From assembly GCF_006491595.2 (NCBI RefSeq), contig NZ_VEVQ02000006.1, positions 1 to 64,000 on the forward strand: 64,000 nucleotides of DNA. The letters run 5' to 3'. Each line of letters starts with the position of its first letter. Position 1 is the stretch's first letter. The notes beneath the pieces are model-generated. The model was not told the DNA's origin and searched no databases. It saw only the letters and a list, made by a program, of their open reading frames with translations. The DNA is from Flavobacterium jejuense (GTDB lineage Bacteria > Bacteroidota > Bacteroidia > Flavobacteriales > Flavobacteriaceae). The position numbers and the translations under genes were made by a program. Shown here piece by piece: positions 18,067 through 50,381 of the stretch.

Positions 18067-21000
18067 TTATTTTGTAACCTTTATAGTACTATTCTTAGAA
18101 TTTGCTGAAAATTCAGGAGCGTACATACTTTGTAAAGTAGAAATACCATCGTTGAAGCTTCCTGAGTTATTGGCGCGAACATCATATTCTAAAATATAGG
18201 TACCTTTATTTATTTTATCAAAGAAAAAATGAGTAGCAATATCTTTTGTACTTTTGTAATAATATAAATTATCCTTTCTTTCATGTTTTGAAATAACATC
18301 AAGTGGTTCAAAACAAGAAGCTCTTAGATCTTTTAAATGAGCAAACTCGATGTCTTCGATTGCTTTTAAAATTAAACGAATAGTTATAATATCACCTATT
18401 TTTAAGTTTTCTTTTTGAATTTCTTTTAAAATAGTTCCATTTCCAGTTTTTTCTTTTTTATATAACTCTTTTTTAATGTTTAAAATGGAGTTTGTACTTT
18501 CTTTTATGTTTTCCAAATTCTCAAAATATTGCCAATAAACTCCTCCATAACTAGGAACATCTGATTTATTTTCAATACTAATAGTTGCCATTTCTTGTGA
18601 AATTTCATCAGTTTTCCAATTGATTTTGATGTAACCTGTTTCTACTTCTTTTTCGTTGGTAGCCAATTTATCACTCAATATTTTTTCATTCCCAATTTTA
18701 AATTTGGTTTTATCTTTTACTGAAGTCCAATCGTTTCCGTGTAATAAAATTGCATAAATAGCTTCAGTAGTTGCTTTTGTAGTTGACCAATTTTTATTTT
18801 GTTTGTTTTTTAGCAACCAAACCTTCATTAAATCAACTGATTTTGTGTCTTGGATAACTTCGTTAAATGCTTCAATCAATACAGCTTGTGTTTCTATCGG
18901 AGATTGGTACCAATACCAACTTTTAGTATTTTCAATCCAATACATGCCTAAATCTTCATTCAAAGAAGCTGTTTCTTTTAAATGGGTTATCATTTTTTTT
19001 GCCATTTCAACTTCACCAAAACGATTGAGAATTAAAGCTAATTGTCCTTTTTGGTACAAAGAATAGTTTAGCCAATTTTTTTTGACTTCTTTTAATTGCA
19101 TTTGAAGAAGTGAATCTAATTTTGTAGCAATTGGGTATTCTTTTACAAAGAAACTTCTCATGTATAAATAGTGGATGTTATTGTAAGAATAGTTTCTGAA
19201 TATTGTTTTGTTATCTTCATATTGCGAAATGAATTTTTGGTCTAAAAATGGAATACCTTTGGTAACTATTTTTTTATATTTAGCTTTATCATTTGGAAAT
19301 AAAACATTTAAATGACCAATTCCTGCTAAAATATGTTGGGTAATAAATGGATTTTCATTGCCACCATCAAACCAAGGAAATCCTCCAGAAGGTAATAATT
19401 TGGCTTCTAGTTTTTCTAAAGTTTGCTCTTCTTTGTTTTTTAACGTTGCCAAATCAAATAAATAAGCCAGTTGCTTGTTCTTTTCAGTTTTGTCTTCAGA
19501 ATCGAAAAACCAGGGTGTTTCTGCTAAAAGAATAGATTTTAATTCTTCATTGATTATAAGTTTACTTTTTGGACTTTTTTTGTTTCTATAGGATTCAAAT
19601 AAACTCGCAATTTTTGGATTTTTGGTAACAATTTCACTAGCAATTGTATTTGCATAATAACGTGCAAAAGTTTGTTCTGCACATTCATGTTCAAATTCCA
19701 TTAAATAAGGTAAAGACTGAATTGCAAACCAAATAGGGTTTGTAGTGTATTCTAACGTGAAATTATGATTTTGTAAAGTAGTTGAAGTGTTGTTTTTTAG
19801 ATTTTCGAATACATATTCTTTCTTACTGTTTTCCCTTACCCAAAGCGGAATGCTTTCAGTTACCAAAATTTTATTACTTAAGACAGGTAAAATATTTTCT
19901 TCACCATCTGAAAAAGTACCCGATTTTGCTACAATTTTATATTGTAATCCTTGTAAGTTTTCAGGAATGGTAATCGTCCATGAAACAGAAATACTTTCTT
20001 TTGGTTTACAAATAAAATCTTTTCTATTGTTTAAATTTAAAGAGATACTATCAATTGCTTTTCCGTTGGTAGCATCAAATAAAAGAAGCATGGCAAGACC
20101 AGCTTTGGTTTCATTAGTCATATTTACCACTTTTGTAGTAATAGTAAGTGTATCTTTTTCTCTTACAAAACGAGGTAAATTTGGCATGACCATAATGTTT
20201 TTTTGCGAAATAATCTCGTTTTGAAAATAACCCGTTTCAAAGTTTTTATTATGACCTAACAAACGCAATTTCCATCTTGTTAAAGATTCAGGAGAAGTGA
20301 AAGAAAGGATTATTTTACCTTCTTTATCTGTTTGTAATTGCGGAAAAAAGAAAGCAGTTTCGTTAAAGTTAGTTCTTGTTTTTACTTGGGTGATTTCTTT
20401 TAAAGCTTGTTTTGTAGTGATAATGATTACTCCATTTGAGGCTCTAGAACCATATAAAGCAACAGCGGAAGCGTCTTTTAAGACGGAAACACTTTCAATA
20501 TTTTCAACTTTTAATTTTGCAAAATATGAAGAGTCTACAGGAATGCCATCTACAATATACAATGGGTTAATTTCTTTATTAACAGAACTTGTGCCTCGTA
20601 TTCTAACAGAACTTGCATTTCCAACTTGTCCGGATCCAGAGGAAACATATACGCCATCAACGGCTCCATTTAATATGCTAAACAAAAGAGTATCATCTGC
20701 AACTGTATCTTTTATTTTAGAAACATTACCGGTCAGATTCCTTTTTGTTTCCATACCATAACCAACAACAACAACTTCTTGTAAAGCATTTGTATCTTCT
20801 TGTAATGTAATATAGATAGTGTTGTTTTTACCTTTTACTGTGTAATAAGTGTCAATCGTTCCTATATAAGAAATTGTCAAAATTTCATTTGCCTCTGCTT
20901 GAATACTAAAATTGCCATCAAAATCACTAGTAGTTCCTCTTTTTGTTCCTTGAACAGTTATATTGGCACCAGCTAAAGGACCAAACTTATCTAAAATTGT

Positions 21001-24000
21001 TCCTGTTATTATTTTTGCGTCTTTCGGAATTTCTGTTAATGATTCAATCGTTTCCAGGTATTTTTCTTGCGCATATTTGCTGTAGGACCCATTAAAGTTG
21101 AATCCAAACCAATTGAGTTGTGGGTTTTTTATGTAATACTGATAATATTTTATGCTTTGGTCAAATTTATTAAAATAAACGTATTTGGATTTATCTTCAT
21201 AAAAACGTGGATAATCTGGACTGGAATAATTCTCGTTAAAATTCAATTTTGTATCCCATTCTTTTTGAGTAAATTGGTCTAGCGAACTATCATACATACT
21301 AGCTAAAACTTCTGTTTCTAATTTTTGATTGAGTATTTTAAAAGACCAATTTTCTTTACTTCCTGGTTCTATTTTGTTGCGAAGACTAATAATTTCAAAT
21401 TCTAATTTTTTGGCTATTTCTTCTTTTGAAACGCTATAAGTTTTATTAAAAGTTTCATTGTCGTAACGAGTTGAAAAATGAAAGAATAAGTTCTCTTTTG
21501 ATGAAGCTTGTTTTTTAATTTTAAGCTTTCCAATTCCATTTGTAAGTTGTACAACAAATTCTTTATCCAGTTCTTTACCAATGTAAAACCTTGAAAAAAT
21601 ATTTAAATCTGGAATAACTGATTGAAATTCGAATTCAAAATAATCACTTTTTGCCTCTGTAACATCTTTGAAAGTAAATAAAACTGATTCGTTAAAAATT
21701 TCTTTTCTTGATTTTAGCTCAAATGAATGTGTACCTTCAATTTGATTGTTTTTACTGTCGAATGCTTTGGCAATTAATTTATAATTTCCCTTTTTTAATT
21801 TTTTTAAAGAATCTAACAGAACTGTTTTTTTGTTTTTTGTGTCGAAAGAAATTGTTTTTATGAGTATTTCATTTATTTTAGTGTCGTTTACATCAAAAGG
21901 CTCATTTGGAAATAACTTTCTAAAATCTTTTTCAACTATGCTTTGAATTTCTGGAATTGAAAATAATCTTGGTTTTAGAAATTGTTTTTTCTCTATATAA
22001 TAAATTTCTATTTTACCTTTTGCATCAATAGGATAATCATTTAATGTAGTAGCTGTGATAGTAAGATGGTTTTCTTCTTCTTTATATAAGGTTGGGTTTG
22101 TAGAAATACTTAATTTTAGAGTTCGATTTTCAACTTTTACATATTTAGAAGCGGTTCTAGTTTCTCCATTTAAATCGATAACTTCTGCTTCAATAGTGTA
22201 ATTAATTTCTCTAATATCTTTATTTTCAACTAAACTATCATTTGCGGTTATACTAATAGTGAAATTTCCTTTTGAATCCGTTTCAATGGTATTTGTTATG
22301 TCTTCTCTTTCTAGGTTTTCGATGTATTTATTGGTATAAATCCTTTTAGAAATTGTATAATTTACTGTAGCATTGGTAAGATTACTTCCAGCTAAAGTTT
22401 TGGTATTTCCAACTATTTTTAAAGTGTCACTTAAAGTGTAATTTTCCTTTATACTTTCAAAAGAGACTTCAAATGTTGGACGTTTATATTCTTCTACTTG
22501 GAAATTGAATTCATTGTCATAATCAAAATCTACATTATCCCAAAATTGATGTTCGTCTTCTTTTTCATCATAATATTTTTTATCATTGTCATAGTTATCG
22601 GGTTCATCAATTGTAACTGAAAATTGACCTGTTAAAATATTTTTTGGAAGATCAAATTCTCCAGCGAAAGAGCCAAAATCGTTGGTTTGTACTTCATATT
22701 CTTTCAAGGTGTTTGAATTGGCATCTTCAATCAGTACTGAGACAGTTAAATGGGGAACAATACTTTTTTCTCCATTTATATTTTGAATGATAATTCCTTT
22801 GTAATAGACTTTTTGACCTGGTCGATATATAGCTCTGTCAAAATAGACTTTGGCTTTAGCTTCAAAATCTTCGTATTTAAAATCTTCTTTATCTTTTTTA
22901 TAAAACCAACCTTTGTTGTAATTGCTAACTAATGTATCTTTTTTATGAATAAAGTAAATATCAGAATTAGGATTTTTAGAGGTTTTTTTTACATATTTCT
23001 TTTTCTTAAAGTCTACTTTTCCTAGAGCATCAGTTAGTTTAGTTTCTTCGTTATTTCTAACGATTATGTTTTGAAGTGGTTTTCCTGTTTTTCTATCCGA
23101 AACATAGAAATAATCGTATTTGTCATCACTGTCTTTTATATAAGCAATATTTGAAACCGTTATAGTTTGGTATTCATAATTGTCTTTAACTAGTTTTTGA
23201 CTGTTAGGTTGGAAGACTAATATATAATCACCTAATGGAATTTGTTCCAAAAGTATTTCGGTAGTATATGTAAAGTAATCTTTTTTATTTGAAAGTATTC
23301 GTGTGTAAGTTTTTACAGCTTTATTTTTATCAACAAAATCTCGAAAAATTGAATCTGGTTTTTTTGTATTCTTGAATGCATTAAAGTTTTTCGGAATTTT
23401 AAAATAATGAATGGTTAATGTGTCTATGTTTTTATATGTAATATGAGCTCTAGTATTTTCATTTTCGTAAAGTGTATTTTTTATTTGAATATTTAATACT
23501 TTTCTTAATATGTTGTTTTTTAAGATTTCGGCTTCAGCCAAAGCATTATTATTTACTCTAGAATTTAAAACGGAATCACAAATTACTAATACTTCATTAT
23601 AGTAATTTTTTTCTGAATTTTTATTGGTAATAGAATTAAAATATTTGGCTTTATCAACTTTTAATTGTTGTTGTAGATGTTTGTTTTTTGTAGTTTCTTC
23701 GAGCGATTTTAATTCTTTTATGTAAAGTGTATTGTTTTTGAAAATAGAATGTATATAATTAAGTCTGTTTGAATAGGCTTTGTCTAATTTGTCTGTATCT
23801 TTTTTACTATAATAAGCTTCGTATTGTTGAAGTAAAGTAATAGTTTTTTTGAAGTTTATATTATAAATGATGTCAGTTGAAGTACTTATGAATGTTGAAG
23901 GATTAGCGTATAGCTTTTCAATAAAAGTATTGTTTTTATTTGTTCTACTTATTTCCCAGTTGTTTTTATTGTTTTTTCTGTAAGTAAATAATTCGTTCCA

Positions 24001-24573
24001 TAAATAGTCATATAAAGTATAATTTTTGGCATTAATGTCTGGAGAAATAGTAAAAATGTCTTTAAATTGTATTATATTTTGTTGTTGTAAAATGATTCTG
24101 TTTTGTAGAGTGTTTTCATAGGCTTTTTCAATTTCGCTTTCAAATTTCGTTGAAGTCCAAAGAAGAAAATTAGTTTCGTTTTCATTTTCTATTTTGGTTC
24201 TGTTTCTAATTTTAGTGTAACTATTTTGCTTATAATAATTCTCCAATATTGAGGCGTAGATACAATTTAAGATAGCCTTTGTGGTTTCATCAGCTTCTCT
24301 AATTTCATTATTTAGATTTACTATTATTTTAGATTGGGCGTCTTCTTCAAGTGCTTGTGTGAATTTTGAAGTATAGAAAAATGTTTTTATAATTTGAATT
24401 TTATCTTTTTTACGTTTTGCTTTTTTATAGATATTTTCCACAACTTCAAATGCAGAACGAGTTTTTCCATCGAGTTCGTGTTGGTAAACTTCTTGCCATT
24501 CTTTATCATAATTTGATTGAGAAAATAATGAAGCACAAATTAGGGAGAATAAGAGGATGGTATAATTTTTCAT
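18067..24573 (-). CDS. Alpha-2-macroglobulin-family protein with nested SusC-like plug
   Basis: The 2168-residue exported protein has a signal peptide ending LFSQ. About 575-660 is an MG2-type domain (YFDRAIYRPGQKVYYKG). About 1185-1265 is a carboxypeptidase-D-like regulatory domain (ITGTILDKFGPLAGANI), followed to about 1390 by a TonB-receptor plug (VRIRGTSSV, LYIVDGIPVD, VLKDASAVALYGSRASNG). Macroglobulin sequence resumes (LQTDKEGKIILSFTSPESLT), and a thioester-type motif HECAEQTF is near residue 1630, then the alpha-helical thioester domain and receptor-like C-terminus. Bacterial macroglobulins trap proteases in the periplasm or at the surface. No barrel follows the plug. The usual partner PBP1C is not next to it. 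The call is firm; the role of the plug is unknown. Confidence 0.85.
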   Translation of the reverse strand: MKNYTILLFSLICASLFSQSNYDKEWQEVYQHELDGKTRSAFEVVENIYKKAKRKKDKIQIIKTFFYTSKFTQALEEDAQSKIIVNLNNEIREADETTKAILNCIYASILENYYKQNSYTKIRNRTKIENENETNFLLWTSTKFESEIEKAYENTLQNRIILQQQNIIQFKDIFTISPDINAKNYTLYDYLWNELFTYRKNNKNNWEISRTNKNNTFIEKLYANPSTFISTSTDIIYNINFKKTITLLQQYEAYYSKKDTDKLDKAYSNRLNYIHSIFKNNTLYIKELKSLEETTKNKHLQQQLKVDKAKYFNSITNKNSEKNYYNEVLVICDSVLNSRVNNNALAEAEILKNNILRKVLNIQIKNTLYENENTRAHITYKNIDTLTIHYFKIPKNFNAFKNTKKPDSIFRDFVDKNKAVKTYTRILSNKKDYFTYTTEILLEQIPLGDYILVFQPNSQKLVKDNYEYQTITVSNIAYIKDSDDKYDYFYVSDRKTGKPLQNIIVRNNEETKLTDALGKVDFKKKKYVKKTSKNPNSDIYFIHKKDTLVSNYNKGWFYKKDKEDFKYEDFEAKAKVYFDRAIYRPGQKVYYKGIIIQNINGEKSIVPHLTVSVLIEDANSNTLKEYEVQTNDFGSFAGEFDLPKNILTGQFSVTIDEPDNYDNDKKYYDEKEDEHQFWDNVDFDYDNEFNFQVEEYKRPTFEVSFESIKENYTLSDTLKIVGNTKTLAGSNLTNATVNYTISKRIYTNKYIENLEREDITNTIETDSKGNFTISITANDSLVENKDIREINYTIEAEVIDLNGETRTASKYVKVENRTLKLSISTNPTLYKEEENHLTITATTLNDYPIDAKGKIEIYYIEKKQFLKPRLFSIPEIQSIVEKDFRKLFPNEPFDVNDTKINEILIKTISFDTKNKKTVLLDSLKKLKKGNYKLIAKAFDSKNNQIEGTHSFELKSRKEIFNESVLFTFKDVTEAKSDYFEFEFQSVIPDLNIFSRFYIGKELDKEFVVQLTNGIGKLKIKKQASSKENLFFHFSTRYDNETFNKTYSVSKEEIAKKLEFEIISLRNKIEPGSKENWSFKILNQKLETEVLASMYDSSLDQFTQKEWDTKLNFNENYSSPDYPRFYEDKSKYVYFNKFDQSIKYYQYYIKNPQLNWFGFNFNGSYSKYAQEKYLETIESLTEIPKDAKIITGTILDKFGPLAGANITVQGTKRGTTSDFDGNFSIQAEANEILTISYIGTIDTYYTVKGKNNTIYITLQEDTNALQEVVVVGYGMETKRNLTGNVSKIKDTVADDTLLFSILNGAVDGVYVSSGSGQVGNASSVRIRGTSSVNKEINPLYIVDGIPVDSSYFAKLKVENIESVSVLKDASAVALYGSRASNGVIIITTKQALKEITQVKTRTNFNETAFFFPQLQTDKEGKIILSFTSPESLTRWKLRLLGHNKNFETGYFQNEIISQKNIMVMPNLPRFVREKDTLTITTKVVNMTNETKAGLAMLLLFDATNGKAIDSISLNLNNRKDFICKPKESISVSWTITIPENLQGLQYKIVAKSGTFSDGEENILPVLSNKILVTESIPLWVRENSKKEYVFENLKNNTSTTLQNHNFTLEYTTNPIWFAIQSLPYLMEFEHECAEQTFARYYANTIASEIVTKNPKIASLFESYRNKKSPKSKLIINEELKSILLAETPWFFDSEDKTEKNKQLAYLFDLATLKNKEEQTLEKLEAKLLPSGGFPWFDGGNENPFITQHILAGIGHLNVLFPNDKAKYKKIVTKGIPFLDQKFISQYEDNKTIFRNYSYNNIHYLYMRSFFVKEYPIATKLDSLLQMQLKEVKKNWLNYSLYQKGQLALILNRFGEVEMAKKMITHLKETASLNEDLGMYWIENTKSWYWYQSPIETQAVLIEAFNEVIQDTKSVDLMKVWLLKNKQNKNWSTTKATTEAIYAILLHGNDWTSVKDKTKFKIGNEKILSDKLATNEKEVETGYIKINWKTDEISQEMATISIENKSDVPSYGGVYWQYFENLENIKESTNSILNIKKELYKKEKTGNGTILKEIQKENLKIGDIITIRLILKAIEDIEFAHLKDLRASCFEPLDVISKHERKDNLYYYKSTKDIATHFFFDKINKGTYILEYDVRANNSGSFNDGISTLQSMYAPEFSANSKNSTIKVTK

Positions 24574-42105: not shown

Positions 42106-45100
42106 TTAGAATATTAAATTAATACTCATGGTATAGAATTTTGTAGGTGGTGTTTGTCCATAACCTCCTATTGCTCCAGCTAACTCTGGGTCATTGTATC
42201 CTCTGTTCTCTTTTGGTAATATAACTAATAAGTTTCTACCACTTATGCCAAATGTACAAGCATTAATGAAACCGTCTTTTAGAAATTTAGAAGGTAGAGA
42301 GTAGCTTAATGAAACTTCTCTTACTTTAAATGCAGTTGCGTCTACTATAAAATTTTCGTCAACTGTTGTATAGTTAGATTGGATATAGTCTTGATATTTT
42401 GCATATGGTGAAGGACCTGAGAAGCTTGGACCAGTTAATACAGTAGTATTTGTTACTCCTGACCCTTCAATAGTTGAGTTTGGAAATATAAAGTAACCGC
42501 GTCCATTTTCAGCAGTAACATATGATCTACCTTGTGTAGTTAAATCTTGATATATTCCTGAATAAAATTGATGTCCTGTCCTATAATCAGCAGTAGCCTT
42601 TAGAGTAAAACCTTTGTATCTTATTTGTGTGCCAAAATTCAGTATATAATCAGGAGTAGTTTTGCCTAGAACTTTAATACCTGATCCTAATTTTGGTGCG
42701 CCATTACTATCTAAGACTACTCTCCCTAATTCGTCTCTCTCGTAATATGTTCCTTGAATTACAGGAAATTGATTACCTACAATTGCATAAGTAGCAGGAG
42801 TCCCATTTGATGTTGCCACGCTCGTAGATTCATTTGTTACTTTATCAACATTTGTTTCAAATGTAAAGTAACCAATATTAGCTGACCATTCAAAATTTTC
42901 ATTTTTAATTGGAGTGAATCCTAAATCTAGTTCTAAAGCGGATGATGTTGTTTGACCTACATTAATTGTTGCTGCAGATACTCCTGTTGATGATGATACA
43001 GATGTAGTTAAGATTTGGTTTGAGTTTTTTGTTTCAGAATAAGATGCGTCAAAAGTCAATCTTGGTGTACCTCTAATGTTTAGCAATTCTAAATTAATAT
43101 TTCCTTCTAACGAAGTTACGAATTCAGGCTCAATTTCTTTATCAGTAGTTCTATTAGGTAAAATAAATGAATTTAAACCAGAAGAAGTATATGGGAAGGC
43201 AGCTGGTTGAATACCAGTATCAATAATTGAGTGAGGAGCTAAACCTGTTACATTTCCAACTTTAACATATGAAGCAGAAACTTTTGCTTTATGTAAAATT
43301 TTACCTTTTAATTCAGGAAATGCTTTTGTAGGTATAAAAGAAACACCAGCTGAAGGATAGAAAAAACCTAAATCTTTTACTTTTTTTCCTTCTAAATTTA
43401 AAGCTGAATTATAGTCTTTTCTAGCGGTTAAGTTTAAGAACAAGTAATCTTTATAGCCTAGATCTAAGTTTGCAAATACACCTAGGTTTCTACTAGTGAA
43501 TTTGTCTTCATCAATTGCAATACTGCTAGAAATGTTGCTAAGGTCATAAAAACCAGGTATCGTTAAATCTCTACCAAAAGAATCATGGAAATAAGTATTA
43601 TTTTCCCATGTACTAGCACCAACTATTGCATTTAAATTTATGTCTTCTGTTAAGTCATAAATAAAATTGGCCAATAAATCATTAGTGTAAATTCTTGAAT
43701 TTCCTGTTTGAACCTGTAATGTGGATGAAATATCCCTTGAGTCGCCTGTGATAGTATAAGTTGCGTTAAAATCATTTAAATAGTCAACAAATCTATAAGT
43801 ACGATCATTAATAGATGTTCTATAAGTCAAATTAATATTTTTATTGAATTTGTATTGACCCTCTAGATTTATTTCAAACCTTTTACCTCTAGTTGCAGCT
43901 CGAGAATTATTCATAATCCAATATGGACTATCTCCAAATGCTGTCCAGTGATCTTGATTACTTCCAGAATTAAATTGTGTGACATCAACATCACTTGGCA
44001 CTTGTGTTAGTTGTTGATAAAGATTCCTATCATTGGTGTTGTTAGCATCACTATCATATGATGAAACAACGTTGGATTTGTCAATACTATACCTAGCTAT
44101 ACCACTTAATTTTAATTTTCCAAAAGTTTTACCAGTATTAAGACTAACTACGTCTCTAGTGAATTCATCATTTGGTATAATGCCTTCAGTATTACGTTTG
44201 TTGTAGCCAAGAGTAAAATAACCTTCATTGTCGCCTCCAGAAATAATTAATGAGTTTTGTAAAGTTGTTCCAGTTTGAAAAAAGTCTTTGACATTATCTT
44301 TTCTAAAATCATAAGTATTATATCTAAAGTCGTTAAATGTAGGATAAGGTAAACCAACAGGTTGAATAGATCCATCATATTCTGGCCCCCAAGATCCTTG
44401 ATCAAAGGCATCTATTTCTCCCCAATAACCTTTACCATATCGATCTTGTTTTTGTGGTAAAAAAGCTATTTCTTCGAAAGTTACAGAAGAGGTAATGTCT
44501 ACTGTTACTTTTCCTTTTTGTTTATTTCCTTTTTTTGTAGTAACAATTATAGCTCCATTTCCACCTACGGATCCGTAAAGTGCTGATCCAGAAGCTCCTT
44601 TAAGTACATTGATAGATTCAATTAAATTTGGGTCTAAATTTGATAAAGCGTTAGCATTTGTGATAACGTTGTCAATAACAATTAATGCCTGATTGGACCC
44701 TGTTATTGATTTATTACCTCTTAAAACAATTTCAGTAGCAGGATTAACACCTGTTGAAATTGTATTGATTTGTAAACCTGTTACTTTTCCCGTTAAAGAT
44801 TGAATTGCATTAGGGTTTTTTGCTTGATTAATTTCATCTGATTTTATTACTTGGCTTGAAGTTGTAAGTTCGTCAGGTTTTCTTTGAATACCAAGTGCAC
44901 CAGTTACTACAACTTCTGATAATTCTTCAGCTTTAAGTGTTACATTGTAAGTGTTAGCTTCACCTATAACGATACTAGTATCTTTTGTGCCTACATAAGA
45001 GAAAACTAAAACATCTCCTACGTTAGCTTTAATAGAATATCCACCATCAAAATTTGTAGTGACACCTCTATTAGTACCTTTTATAATTACATTAGCTCCA

Positions 45101-45216
45101 GATAAAGGTCCTATGATATCAGTAACTACACCAGTTATAGTTTTTTCTTGGGCGAATGATAATTGAAATAATAACGCAACAATTAGTGTTAAAATCCATT
45201 TAAATTTACATCTCAT
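42106..45216 (-). CDS. SusC/RagA-type TonB-dependent receptor, locus 1
   Basis: The 1036-residue protein has a signal peptide (about 1-22, LLFQLSFAQ), a carboxypeptidase-D-like domain (about 24-95, ITGVVTDIIGPLSGANVIIK), a plug (SEVVVTGALGIQRKP, INVLKGASGSALYGSVGGNG) and a long beta-barrel ending in NLIF, the aromatic C-terminus of outer-membrane barrels. It would import a nutrient bound by the adjoining SusD. No glycoside hydrolase is near, so the substrate may be a peptide or other polymer. The 5' leader resembles that of the second SusC gene. Confidence 0.95.
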   Translation of the reverse strand: MRCKFKWILTLIVALLFQLSFAQEKTITGVVTDIIGPLSGANVIIKGTNRGVTTNFDGGYSIKANVGDVLVFSYVGTKDTSIVIGEANTYNVTLKAEELSEVVVTGALGIQRKPDELTTSSQVIKSDEINQAKNPNAIQSLTGKVTGLQINTISTGVNPATEIVLRGNKSITGSNQALIVIDNVITNANALSNLDPNLIESINVLKGASGSALYGSVGGNGAIIVTTKKGNKQKGKVTVDITSSVTFEEIAFLPQKQDRYGKGYWGEIDAFDQGSWGPEYDGSIQPVGLPYPTFNDFRYNTYDFRKDNVKDFFQTGTTLQNSLIISGGDNEGYFTLGYNKRNTEGIIPNDEFTRDVVSLNTGKTFGKLKLSGIARYSIDKSNVVSSYDSDANNTNDRNLYQQLTQVPSDVDVTQFNSGSNQDHWTAFGDSPYWIMNNSRAATRGKRFEINLEGQYKFNKNINLTYRTSINDRTYRFVDYLNDFNATYTITGDSRDISSTLQVQTGNSRIYTNDLLANFIYDLTEDINLNAIVGASTWENNTYFHDSFGRDLTIPGFYDLSNISSSIAIDEDKFTSRNLGVFANLDLGYKDYLFLNLTARKDYNSALNLEGKKVKDLGFFYPSAGVSFIPTKAFPELKGKILHKAKVSASYVKVGNVTGLAPHSIIDTGIQPAAFPYTSSGLNSFILPNRTTDKEIEPEFVTSLEGNINLELLNIRGTPRLTFDASYSETKNSNQILTTSVSSSTGVSAATINVGQTTSSALELDLGFTPIKNENFEWSANIGYFTFETNVDKVTNESTSVATSNGTPATYAIVGNQFPVIQGTYYERDELGRVVLDSNGAPKLGSGIKVLGKTTPDYILNFGTQIRYKGFTLKATADYRTGHQFYSGIYQDLTTQGRSYVTAENGRGYFIFPNSTIEGSGVTNTTVLTGPSFSGPSPYAKYQDYIQSNYTTVDENFIVDATAFKVREVSLSYSLPSKFLKDGFINACTFGISGRNLLVILPKENRGYNDPELAGAIGGYGQTPPTKFYTMSINLIF

Positions 45217-47153: not shown

Positions 47154-50100
47154 TTAGAATTTAAAAGTTATGTTTAGGCCTATATCTCTTGTTGTAGGTA
47201 ATGAACCTACTGAGTAACCTCTTGATAAATTACCAGATGATAAGCCACTTTCTGGATCCGCATACGGTAGGTTTTTGTGAATAATCCATAGATTAGTACC
47301 TACTAAACTACATTTCAAATCTTTAATGAATGTGTTTTCAAAATATTTTTTTGGAAAACTATATGAAATTGAAGCTTCACGTAATTTTACAAATGATGCA
47401 TCATAAATGAATGATTTATTAGGTTCTCTTCTGTATCCATAATTATTCCCATAGAACTCAGGAGAAATTGTAGCAACTGTGTTTGGGCTTCCGTCAGGTG
47501 CAACACCTTGATGAATAACTCCAGTAGTTCTTATGTCTCCTTCAGCTGTTTCTGCATACAATCCTGTAGCTAAACCATATGCCATGTCTAAAGAGAAAAT
47601 ATCTCCACCTTTTTGCATATCAATCAAAAATCCAAGAGAAATGTTTTTATAGGTGATTTTGTTTCTTAATCCACCTATCCAATCTGGAGTTATATTTCCA
47701 ATTGTATTATCAGATGTAGTTGTCGCTAAATACCTTCCTGTACTTTGGTCAATAACTGGTTGTCCATTAACATAAATATAATCTGTACCTTTTATGGTCC
47801 CATATGGTTCACCAGGAGTTGCATTTATTGTAATACCTTGCTGGAAAGAACCTAATTGTAGGTTTTCTAAGCCACCAGGTAAAGAAATAACTTCACTTTT
47901 GTTTTTTGACCAGTTTACAATTATATCCCATTGAAAATCTTCAGTCTTTATAGGTGTTCCGGTTAACTGTAATTCAATACCTTTGTTTTGAATTTCTCCA
48001 CCATTTACAACTGCATTAGTAACGCTAGAAGCAGATGAAACTGCACCAGAAACAATTTGATCAATCGAGTTTGTTACATAATAACTTGCATCAATTCCAA
48101 AACGTCTATTAAACATACTCGCTTCAATACCTATTTCGAAAGATTTTGTTCTTTCGGGTTTTAAGTTAGGGTTTTTGTTAACATTTGGTAGAGTGAATGA
48201 CGGTTGTCCATGAAAGTTTGTGTTTCTTTGGAATGTGTTGATTAAGCTTAATGGAGGTGCATCATTTCCTACTTCAGCATAATTAGCTCTTATCTTTCCA
48301 AAGTTAAGCCATTCTTGGTTTGCTAAATTTGAGAATACTAAAGATCCAGATACAGCAGGGTAATAGTATGAATTGTCACCTTTAGGTAGTGTTGATGAAG
48401 CATCTCTTCTGATTGAGGCATCAACGAAGTAGGTGTCTTTAAATCCTATAGATCCTTGTGCATAAAGGCCATTTACTCCCCATGTATATTTTGTTTGTAC
48501 AGGGAAAGGTAATTCAAATCGTGAATTAGAAAGAGCATAAAGTTCTGGTACAACAAGACCACCAATTGTAGAAGCTAAAACATTGTCTACATATTGTCTT
48601 CTTACATTTGATCCTATAACTCCAGTTAAACTTATTTCTGAATCAAATTTTTTGTTAAAATTTAACATCATGTCATAATTTAACTCTTTGAAACTTCTAT
48701 CGTATCTTTGGTACCCTGAACCTTCGTCTACTGGGGATAAACCAAACGTCGAGGCTATAGAGCCAATAGCTCTTCTTTCTTCTTGTAATTCTTTGTATGT
48801 GTCCATGGAGATTCTACCCATAGCTGATAACCAACTATTAATCTCATAATTCAATGAAGCATATCCTAATAATCTGTTTCTGCTATCAGAAGAGTAGTTT
48901 TTGTATCTTGTAAAGTATGGATTGTCCCAAAAGATTGGTTTTAGACCACTTGGGTCTGATACATCTGACCAATTCCAAGTTATGTTTTGACCACCAGAAT
49001 TGTTATAAACTTGTTCTAGTTCTTTAACGTCAACATTAGTTTGCCACCATTGTCTGAAATTTGTCATGACGTTGTCATTGTAACCTGTAGAGTTTCTACC
49101 AGTAGTGTTTTGTAATGTGACAGCAGCATATGAATTGAAAGTTAGCTTGTCTGTGATTTTTTGACTGAATTTAGTACTTAATTGATTTTTTTTCAACTTA
49201 CTATTAGGTAAAATCCCAGTTTGGTCAAAATTTGTTAATGAAAACAATAAATTTGATTTATCTGTCGAATTTTGAATACTTATACTGTTATTTGTAGTTA
49301 CAGATTTATTAAAAAAAGATACTGGACCATTTTTTGCACTTTGCCATGGAGTAGCTTGGTTGAAATTATCAGAGTATGGAGTGAAAGCATTCCATTGATA
49401 AACTAACTGATTGTCAAATGCAGCTCCATATGAAGCATCTTCATAAGTTGGCACGACTAAATCATCTGTGGAGTCTCCATTTACATCAAAATAATCAAAA
49501 TACCCAGTTGGATCTCCGTAATATGGGCCATACCCAGCTCCATATTTATCCTGGTATGTTGGGAATGTTGATTTGTCAACAGTTCCTACATTTAGACTTG
49601 AAGAAACTGTTACTCCAAATCCTTTTCCTGATTTCCCTTTTTTTGTAGTAACCATTACTACTCCATTTGCAGCTCTAGAACCATATAAAGCAGTCGCGGC
49701 AGCTCCTTTCAATATATTAATGGATTCAATGTCTTCTTGATTAATGTCAGAAGCAGTATTTCCGTAGTCATATCCGCTACCAGCTTGTTGTTGACCAGTT
49801 GTGTTTGAATTAGAATTGTCTACTGGAACACCATCTATAACCCAAAGCGCTTGATTGTTTCCTGTTAGGGATTTGTTTCCACGAATAACAACATTTGTAG
49901 AACCTCCCATGTTGTTGTTTCTCCTGATTTCTACACCTGCGGCTTTTCCAGATAATAGATTGGTTACGTTTCCTGTTGCTGATCCTCCATTTAAATCATC
50001 ACCATTTATTTGTTGAGTTGCATATCCAAGAGATTTTTTTTCTCTTTTAATGCCTTGTGCGGTTACAACTACTCCTTCTAGAGTAGTTACATCTTCTTGC

Positions 50101-50381
50101 ATTGTAACTTTTAAAGTTGTTGAATTAACAATAACTTCTTGAGTCTTCATGCTGACATAACTGAAAACAAGTATTGAGCCTTGTTTTACTTCAATTTTAA
50201 AATTACCATCAAAATCGGTTTGTGTGCCGTTACTTGTGCTTTTCTCTTGAATAGCTACACTTGGTAACGGAAGTCCGTTTTGATCTACAACTGTTCCAGA
50301 AACAGTTTTTACTTGAGCAAAAGTCATTTGCCCTAACATTACCACTAACACCGTTAGTAGTAGGTTAAATTTAGATCTCAT
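47154..50381 (-). CDS. SusC/RagA-type TonB-dependent receptor, locus 2
   Basis: The 1075-residue protein has a signal peptide (LTVLVVMLGQMTFAQ), a carboxypeptidase-D-like domain (VSGTVVDQNGLPLPSVAIQ), a plug (GVVVTAQGIKREKKS, INILKGAAATALYGSRAANG) and a barrel ending NITFKF. It shares layout with locus 1 but the barrel differs, so it probably transports another substrate. The gene starts ATGAGATC like the first copy (ATGAGATG), after the same CTAATTCAAA leader motif. Confidence 0.95.
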   Translation of the reverse strand: MRSKFNLLLTVLVVMLGQMTFAQVKTVSGTVVDQNGLPLPSVAIQEKSTSNGTQTDFDGNFKIEVKQGSILVFSYVSMKTQEVIVNSTTLKVTMQEDVTTLEGVVVTAQGIKREKKSLGYATQQINGDDLNGGSATGNVTNLLSGKAAGVEIRRNNNMGGSTNVVIRGNKSLTGNNQALWVIDGVPVDNSNSNTTGQQQAGSGYDYGNTASDINQEDIESINILKGAAATALYGSRAANGVVMVTTKKGKSGKGFGVTVSSSLNVGTVDKSTFPTYQDKYGAGYGPYYGDPTGYFDYFDVNGDSTDDLVVPTYEDASYGAAFDNQLVYQWNAFTPYSDNFNQATPWQSAKNGPVSFFNKSVTTNNSISIQNSTDKSNLLFSLTNFDQTGILPNSKLKKNQLSTKFSQKITDKLTFNSYAAVTLQNTTGRNSTGYNDNVMTNFRQWWQTNVDVKELEQVYNNSGGQNITWNWSDVSDPSGLKPIFWDNPYFTRYKNYSSDSRNRLLGYASLNYEINSWLSAMGRISMDTYKELQEERRAIGSIASTFGLSPVDEGSGYQRYDRSFKELNYDMMLNFNKKFDSEISLTGVIGSNVRRQYVDNVLASTIGGLVVPELYALSNSRFELPFPVQTKYTWGVNGLYAQGSIGFKDTYFVDASIRRDASSTLPKGDNSYYYPAVSGSLVFSNLANQEWLNFGKIRANYAEVGNDAPPLSLINTFQRNTNFHGQPSFTLPNVNKNPNLKPERTKSFEIGIEASMFNRRFGIDASYYVTNSIDQIVSGAVSSASSVTNAVVNGGEIQNKGIELQLTGTPIKTEDFQWDIIVNWSKNKSEVISLPGGLENLQLGSFQQGITINATPGEPYGTIKGTDYIYVNGQPVIDQSTGRYLATTTSDNTIGNITPDWIGGLRNKITYKNISLGFLIDMQKGGDIFSLDMAYGLATGLYAETAEGDIRTTGVIHQGVAPDGSPNTVATISPEFYGNNYGYRREPNKSFIYDASFVKLREASISYSFPKKYFENTFIKDLKCSLVGTNLWIIHKNLPYADPESGLSSGNLSRGYSVGSLPTTRDIGLNITFKF

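Follow-up and report, generated by a model that had tools for sequence, protein, structure and literature searches.

Why does a protein built like a protease trap carry half of an outer-membrane receptor? The question was raised by the first 64,000 nucleotides of contig NZ_VEVQ02000006.1 from Flavobacterium jejuense (assembly GCF_006491595.2), a stretch hereafter called the window. One uninterrupted open reading frame (ORF) in it, at 18067-24573 on the minus strand, encoded a 2168-amino-acid protein resembling alpha-2-macroglobulin (A2M). A sequence-only reading of the window had described in this protein a carboxypeptidase-D-like domain and a TonB plug, and had suggested that it docks at, or competes with, SusC-type receptors. 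Our analysis indicated that the protein is an A2M with a thioester motif whose bait is a copied, soluble N-terminal half of SusC, consisting of the NTE domain, the TonB box and the plug. The bait of Flavobacterium has been re-copied several times from a SusC of the same genome; among the SusCs compared, the donor was nearly always that of the lysS-lipB-rnhB locus. We tentatively propose, with a little less than even confidence, that the bait is a self-decoy that springs the trap on proteases attacking the periplasmic half of SusC.

The following features were assigned to the protein.

24517..24573, minus strand: putative signal peptide of the cleavable type, residues 1-19, assigned by eye with an inferred site and no lipobox cysteine.
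22594..22848, minus strand: MG2 domain, residues 576-660 (PF01835, 60.2 bits, over cut-off).
20371..21270, minus strand: bait region, about residues 1102-1401, from 'MYDSSLDQF' of MG6 to 'RTNFNETAFF' (profile alignment and fold matches of the flanks).
20767..21009, minus strand: NTE or carboxypeptidase-D-like domain of the SusC type, residues 1189-1269 (PF13715, CarbopepD_reg_2, 55.1 bits; model compared with the NTE of SusCdex, 9hfj).
20755..20784, minus strand: TonB box LQEVVVVGYG, residues 1264-1273, in a linker predicted to be disordered (matrix score 25.6, with the 99.9% null level at 12.3).
20428..20688, minus strand: TonB-receptor plug, residues 1296-1382 (PF07715, 50.2 bits, profile positions 24-107 of 107; model compared with 6z9a_B).
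20410..20499, minus strand: SusC/RagA signature segment, residues 1359-1388 (TIGR04057, 61.7 bits, over cut-off).
20104..20358, minus strand: A2M (MG7) domain, residues 1406-1490 (PF00207, 57.2 bits, over cut-off).
19672..19683, minus strand: thioester motif CAEQ, residues 1631-1634, in the thioester domain (sequence; C-terminal model compared with 4ziu).
18112..18483, minus strand: bMG10 domain, residues 2031-2154 (PF17973, 92 bits, over cut-off).

The Pfam and NCBIfam scans confirmed what had been read from the letters, an A2M-like frame with a carboxypeptidase-D-like domain and a plug, and CAEQ was found at residue 1631. The plug had been called complete. This was a fair description although Pfam skipped the first 23 profile positions, since the match to PF07715 was over the cut-off and the modelled plug (model positions 316-427) superposed on the SusC plug 6z9a_B over 105 residues (Z 10.1; root mean square deviation, rmsd, 3.1). 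The MG2, A2M/MG7 and bMG10 domains of a bacterial type I A2M were all present, and so was CxEQ in an alpha-toroid thioester domain. The C-terminal model, with a mean predicted local distance difference test (pLDDT) of 83.4, matched E. coli A2M 4ziu (Z 22.8, 566 residues aligned, rmsd 13.6), and its mostly helical residues 217-556 matched the thioester domain of C5, 9y6c (Z 18.9, rmsd 4.2, 281 aligned). On the SusC side, the NTE, the plug and, between them, the TonB box of a SusC/RagA transporter were all found; the TonB box had gone unmentioned in the sequence-only reading. The family model TIGR04056 (SusC/RagA) matched residues 1189-1404 at its positions 3-220 of 981, with 246.3 bits, below the family cut-off of 368.25. 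The closest solved structures for this stretch were SusC homologues (8aa4, E 2e-36). No 22-strand outer-membrane barrel followed the plug in the scans of the ORF; MG7 came next. An assembly chimera was ruled out, because many independent genomes had the same layout in a continuous open frame. The Pfam scan of the ten flanking ORFs of the window gave no transglycosylase or transpeptidase of the kind expected for a PbpC partnership.

The SusC-like module had been placed between the two halves of the A2M, which was correct; more exactly it lay at the bait region, a point the sequence-only reading had not noticed. When the C-terminal half was aligned as a profile, the stretch that directly follows the insert (RTNFNETAFF) fell on VRKYFPETWIW of human A2M, from position 705 of 7voo, a segment that follows the bait region in that protein. 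The 7voo match had an E value of 5.6e-9 over the whole chain, that domain alone being weak at 13.3 bits, and the profile also aligned with 718-815 of A2M 7s62 (E 2e-4). The flanks of the insert matched Salmonella A2M 4u48 (747-1054; Z 10.6, rmsd 11.7, 240 residues). By this alignment and these flanking folds, the SusC module fills the bait position between MG6 and MG7. An AlphaFold model of residues 963-1504 had a mean pLDDT of 72.7. The NTE was well predicted (blocks of 82-94) and matched that of SusCdex 9hfj (Z 14.0, rmsd 1.3, 79 residues); the plug reached 55-83. The linkers were predicted to be disordered, and pLDDT fell below 50 at model positions 302-322 (residues 1264-1284), which cover the TonB box.

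Chance similarity to SusC was ruled out by controls on non-bait pieces and shuffled sequences and by the TonB-box null. Matches to the A2M half were present in 86 of 296 Bacteroidota genomes, some of them weak, and in 75 of 199 genomes of the genus of the window, a few being fragments; among the named loci, 23 of 27 bore the name Flavobacterium. We read 102 baits, 101 of them distinct, as L131 was identical to L033. The phylum survey left out three strong near-duplicate matches (G034, G131, G272) and part of the weak ones, and the remnants L138 and L139 held no bait. In a blind scan of the 101 baits with Pfam and NCBIfam, SusC/RagA matched 43, CarbopepD_reg_2 37 and Plug 29. Further recurrent matches were other TonB receptors, BamP (20), CooC_C (6), an S-layer family (3) and TTR_TEN1-4 (3); the BamP match on the bait of the window fell over the NTE. 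No barrel part was matched in these scans. A hidden Markov model (HMM) built for SusC only was positive at 1e-3 in 43 of 81 baits of family A, the A2M family of the window, and in 5 of 20 baits of other A2M subfamilies. It was positive in 1 of 202 non-bait pieces and in 0 of 505 shuffled baits. Within the phylum survey, 23 of 61 family-A baits were positive, the window included.

The likeness was most complete around Flavobacterium. Baits of this clade were SusC-like in whole or in part in 30 of 30 cases in the HMM set, and in 34 of 34 with four later loci (L114, L116, L124, L129). These four had failed the bait extraction pattern and were counted only there; all of them held full SusC modules. 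Elsewhere in the Bacteroidota the bait often retained pieces only, such as the TonB box. With a matrix built from SusC boxes and a threshold at the 99.9% null level, the box was detected in 38 of the 81 baits of family A, among them 20 of the 30 from the Flavobacterium clade, and in 4 of the 20 baits of other subfamilies. When all baits were aligned, no internal majority motif was longer than LxEVVV. The short baits of L080, L074, L071 and L077 had a plug-like bit of the type 'GKVAGVxIRGV' before the TonB box, an order reversed with respect to SusC. A contig labelled as a Limnohabitans metagenome-assembled genome (L120) held a Flavobacterium-type A2M with a SusC-positive bait and is probably misbinned. 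In some Flavobacterium genomes (G404, G467, G433, G452) and at L138, the match was confined to the last part of the A2M; these are probable gene remnants.

The origin of the module was examined by comparing 20 A2M modules with 133 SusC modules from the same 20 genomes. A tree of 116 modules included 96 of the 133 SusC rows. The A2M modules were polyphyletic among the SusCs, with 12 label changes, at least 9 of them forced by starred branches of the tree. Bait and resident SusC formed pairs in G493 (support 100), G496 (98), G495 (96), G494 (95) and G166 (94). The baits and SusCs of the sister species F. saliperosum (G487) and F. cauense (G498) formed a joint clade with support of 98. Bait branches were long and SusC branches short, and the tree was therefore as expected with SusC as the source. 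A single ancient acquisition followed by simple decay was ruled out for Flavobacterium, where baits were polyphyletic and resident pairs existed.

Identities gave the same picture, and in several species the bait was closest to its own SusC, at 60-74%. The resident and the best non-resident SusC were at 71.6 and 59.1% in G494, 69.7 and 60.7% in G496, 60.4 and 40.1% in G493, and 60.5 and 53.2% in G495. In whole-genome searches, the F. saliperosum bait was 72% identical to the sole close SusC of its genome, with the next match at 30%. The F. cerinum bait was 60% identical to the resident SusC, the next SusC being at 40%; the values were 68% for F. cauense and 69% for F. suaedae. These searches used the genome's own bait in G000, G166, G238, G487, G498, G495 and G496 and a related bait in G491, G493, G494 and G499; the remaining genomes were searched with the bait of the window and by partial sets. 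In G496 and G495 the own-bait search ranked the resident SusC of the lysS locus above all other SusCs. In the 15 genomes compared, the copied part began directly behind the signal peptide, at residue 22-29 of SusC, and ended at 227-238, about the plug end, in 13 of 15, the other two ending at 246 and 258. The link between A2M and SusC was strongly supported, and in a more specific form than first suggested: in several species the module duplicates the SusC of its own host.

The donor could be narrowed to one locus. In 14 of 15 genomes, the best resident match among the SusCs compared was the SusC at the lysS-lipB-rnhB locus. The order lysS, lipB, rnhB and then susC was found in 15 of the 16 regions compared, with Porin_10 in 13; gene names were assigned by Pfam on two regions. 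The matching SusCs shared the signal peptide M-R/K-S-K-F-K/T-W-I, which lies outside the copied module, and by the first, strict motif the signal-peptide test held in 12 of 13 genomes. A donor near the A2M gene was ruled out where the distance was visible, the two being 2 Mb apart on one contig in G500. The A2M gene and the donor-type SusC of the window's genome were on different contigs. The window also held the N-terminal modules of two SusC genes, as follows.

44506-45138, minus strand: SusC module with the special signal peptide, grouping with the donor SusC of F. saliperosum (92).
49812-50303, minus strand: SusC module.

Two SusC barrel classes (BLAST clusters 4 and 7) alternated at the lysS locus. 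The bait preferred the resident class of its genome in 15 of 15 genomes, with the genome's own SusC excluded from the comparison, so that bait class agreed with resident class at one locus throughout. Class 7 occupied three places on the A2M tree (G487 with G498, G491, and G493), and independent switches of class may number two or three. Fjoh_0403 is described in the available part of PMC12611786 as belonging to a SUS complex that is among the most abundant in F. johnsoniae. From the gene order susC-susD-lipoprotein, it is plausible that the lysS-locus SusC is orthologous to Fjoh_0403. Genes of a 640-amino-acid cluster were found in 6 regions, directly before susC in five of them. The member in G494 was an S8 subtilase with a sorting tail of the type IX secretion system (T9SS). 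At L337 (9226-11136, minus strand), a gene for an S8 subtilase with such a tail directly adjoined the lysS-locus susCD, and its product is a candidate protease.

Several observations weighed against repeated copying from this resident SusC, or against a bait role for the copy. The resident genome ranked first for the bait in only 9 of 20 genomes, one of them a tie. It was second in G487 and G498, each behind the other. In G000, G500, G499 and G238 it came second or third and was beaten only narrowly. It ranked lower in G257, G489, G490, G118 and G492; two SusCs each were compared for G489, G490 and G118, and the G118 module was shortened in the ranking. The permutation p of this comparison was 5e-5, a value that ignores relatedness. 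In the window's genome, the bait was 45.0% identical to its own SusC and 44.9% to that of the sister species, and the copy in this genome is older. The best match of G491 was not the lysS-locus SusC; it was a second SusC with the same type of signal peptide (410 vs 387). The widened signal-peptide motif held in 15 of 15 genomes with 4.2 expected, and it had been widened after misses were seen. Of the SusCs compared from G166 (20) and G238 (24), none bore the special signal peptide; despite this, G166 had a resident pair (94), and G238 had none. For the class switches, G487 and G498 were each other's best class-7 match, and a tree of the linked lysS gene joined G491 to them (88), so that the switches perhaps number two. 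Six of the 12 pairs used for the ratio of nonsynonymous to synonymous substitution rates (dN/dS) had dS >1. The bait model had a predicted template modelling score (pTM) of 0.35, and the relative placement of the domains is not given by it. A classical bait is disordered, whereas a fold was predicted for NTE and plug, and disorder was confined to the linkers. CxEQ was replaced by SAEQ in the Flavobacterium A2Ms L034 and L037. A distinct subfamily of distant A2Ms whose modules were full (L095, L102, L109, L111) had no CxEQ by pattern. Finally, we know of no protease that cuts the N-terminal half of SusC.

Selection and recombination bore on whether the module has any dedicated function. The bait had dN/dS of 0.08-0.27 in the 12 pairs, and of 0.16-0.24 in the six with dS <0.7. 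The ratio was 0.05-0.14 for the C-terminal half and 0.12-0.23 for the N-terminal half of the A2M (11 readable pairs). The bait was therefore under purifying selection, weaker than that on the C-terminal half and near that on the N-terminal half. By pattern, the thioester motif CxEQ was retained in 28 of 30 Flavobacterium-clade A2Ms and in 64 of 81 of family A, with at least one motif missed (L044, with ACNEQ); the clade L068-L074 had no CxEQ. Recombination was visible inside the A2M gene. L039 and L134 were 97.7% identical in the C-terminal part and 71.7% in the N-terminal part, and L119 and L127 were likewise recombinant, one half being near identical and the other more diverged. Such exchange would be expected if the bait merely tolerated flexible inserts and were overwritten by ectopic gene conversion from abundant susC genes. 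The 43 Plug matches in the window's genome (that of the A2M included), the long bait branches and the partial modules in many lineages would fit this explanation. However, the bait was under purifying selection, though about as weak as for the A2M N-terminal half. The frequent matches in baits were N-terminal parts of SusC and other TonB-dependent transporters and NTE-type domains, with no barrel part, and the best donor among those compared was nearly always one locus. We also infer that classes 4 and 7 are too diverged for easy homologous conversion, yet bait class followed the locus. We consider the absence of a dedicated function unlikely. The self-decoy reading also accommodates partial modules, since any look-alike that can be cleaved would suffice as bait.

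The TonB box was the best-kept part between bait and resident SusC, with a pooled identity of 76% as compared with 51-61% elsewhere (15 genomes). This is what would be expected if the module were a docking device, in which NTE, TonB box and plug tether the protein to TonB or to a SusC barrel, plugging it in trans. The protein would then be held at the receptor and the allele matching would reflect a binding interface, close to the earlier suggestion of docking or competition. Consistent with docking, the box was over threshold in 13 other family-A baits that showed no NTE or plug by eye, and the NTE has been proposed to confer TonB specificity in the available part of PMC7782687. However, no more than 20 of the 30 baits of the Flavobacterium clade had a box that reached the threshold, and six of the remaining ten (L035, L036, L038, L117, L118, L135) retained part of the plug. 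L039, L041, L119, L127 and L134 retained the NTE and a box or box-like stretch with no plug. The module also stood at the site where A2Ms are cut, and this location in the bait region favours mimicry of a protease substrate over docking or competition. Docking is the less probable explanation.

A second protein family carried the module as well. In G496 and G495, the bait matches that followed the lysS-locus SusC included a vWA/YfbK protein (PF12450, PF00092, PF12034). A plug, or an NTE and a plug, lay between one membrane stretch (by eye) and the vWA domain, and the gene was directly downstream of a gene resembling those for extracytoplasmic function (ECF) sigma factors. The proteins of this kind were as follows.

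L349, 4349-7222, plus strand: vWA/YfbK protein with SusC module, two plug stretches, ECF sigma-like gene directly upstream.
L350, 5037-7841, minus strand: vWA/YfbK protein with SusC module, ECF sigma-like gene directly upstream.
L324: vWA/YfbK protein with SusC module.
L323: vWA/YfbK protein with SusC module.
L352, 3049-5046, plus strand: vWA/YfbK protein with SusC module, from G166, outside the resident comparison.

The module was 84.2% identical to the genome's own lysS-locus SusC in G496 (next 77.0) and 69.2% in G495 (next 57.4), when all the SusC modules gathered were compared. Against 16 SusCs of the special-signal-peptide type, it was 71.2% identical to the own lysS-locus SusC in G493 (next 45.8), and 56.6 and 59.4% to the genome's two SusCs in G491 (next 44.0). 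The Flavobacterium-type copies were thus resident-matched in 4 of 4 cases. The window's genome encoded a DUF2135 protein with a vWA-like motif (L157, 352-3270, minus strand, on C3 at about 313 kb). It had a SusC-type NTE, a TonB box and eroded plug remnants, and it showed no resident preference (42.6% own vs 43.1% sister).

This second family counts against a purely A2M-specific reading. A resident-matched module was present in a family not known as a protease trap, which weakens such a reading, suggests a common partner and keeps docking alive; we still regard docking, also for the vWA/YfbK proteins, as unlikely. The neighbouring ECF sigma-like genes would fit a different idea, namely that envelope proteins with a SusC half are sensors cleaved alongside SusC to report damage, the A2M being one of them. 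The single membrane stretch of the G495 and G496 proteins agreed with this. However, the vWA proteins of G491, G493 and G166 started with a signal peptide and had no such membrane stretch by eye, and a sensor role for the whole set appeared very improbable. In a broader form of the self-decoy reading, Bacteroidota would survey their envelope with unrelated periplasmic proteins that carry a renewed, allele-matched half of one major SusC. An agent attacking the receptor would then also strike a trap (the A2M) and an alarm (the vWA/YfbK protein, in some cases beside an ECF sigma gene). We consider this wider surveillance rather unlikely. Guard and decoy logic is known from plant immunity, and surveillance of this kind, if true, would be its bacterial form.

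For the A2M itself, the self-decoy reading may be put as follows. The bait determines which protease would spring an A2M; in the available part of PMC9918453, swapping bait sites or part of the bait made A2M capture the matching protease. A periplasmic protease that attacks the exposed NTE, TonB box or plug of SusC would also cut the look-alike in the A2M. The cut would free the bait, the A2M would close, and the thioester would bond to the protease. If the SusC at the lysS locus were replaced by the other class, the decoy would have to be renewed, and this would account for the joint change of bait and SusC although their loci are unlinked. This was the simplest reading of a bait that repeatedly copies the periplasmic half of SusC, given that bait exchange retargets capture. 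The copy, its place, its renewal and its constraint were observed here; the protease attacking SusC, its capture and the resulting protection would follow if the reading holds.

To our knowledge, the natural targets of bacterial A2Ms are an open question. With a bait that duplicates a single self-protein and keeps pace with its alleles, a definite target comes into view, and the question becomes testable through the protease that cuts this SusC. If the decoy is true, it would explain a puzzling fusion that annotation presents as an odd mixture of domains, and if docking is true, the protease trap would contain a plug domain that acts in trans. One or more other envelope families are tied to the same receptor locus. 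Whatever the mechanism, sequence data suffice to check whether the two unlinked loci co-vary. Each part is known. Among the matches listed, in literature with few subscription journals, no publication described a natural bait taken from half of a resident receptor whose classes it follows at an unlinked locus, and none tied A2M to SusC or to plug domains; one SusC query mostly matched other words.

In comparison with known systems, the protein resembled bacterial type I A2Ms (E. coli YfhM/ECAM and Salmonella A2M) in its MG domains, bait position, CxEQ thioester domain and bMG10. It differed from them in a bait of about 300 residues that is a copied N-terminal half of SusC and in a signal peptide read by eye as having no lipobox; unlike the E. 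coli gene, it had no pbpC-like gene among the ten neighbours scanned. It shared with SusC/RagA transporters the NTE, the TonB box and a plug bearing the SusC signature, a span that in SusC begins directly behind the signal peptide and runs roughly to the end of the plug. It was unlike them in the absence of a barrel, in being embedded in an A2M and in a TIGR04056 score below the cut-off. The lysS locus was similar to ragAB of Porphyromonas gingivalis, a single susCD-type locus with strongly different alleles, four in number according to the available part of PMC11817032. No counterpart of the bait is described in that part. The closest parallel in bait exchange was the engineered A2Mcap (PMC9918453, available part), in which the bait is exchanged for a chosen protease substrate. 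Short engineered sites are used there, whereas the bait here is a natural, repeatedly renewed copy of a whole half of a self-protein.

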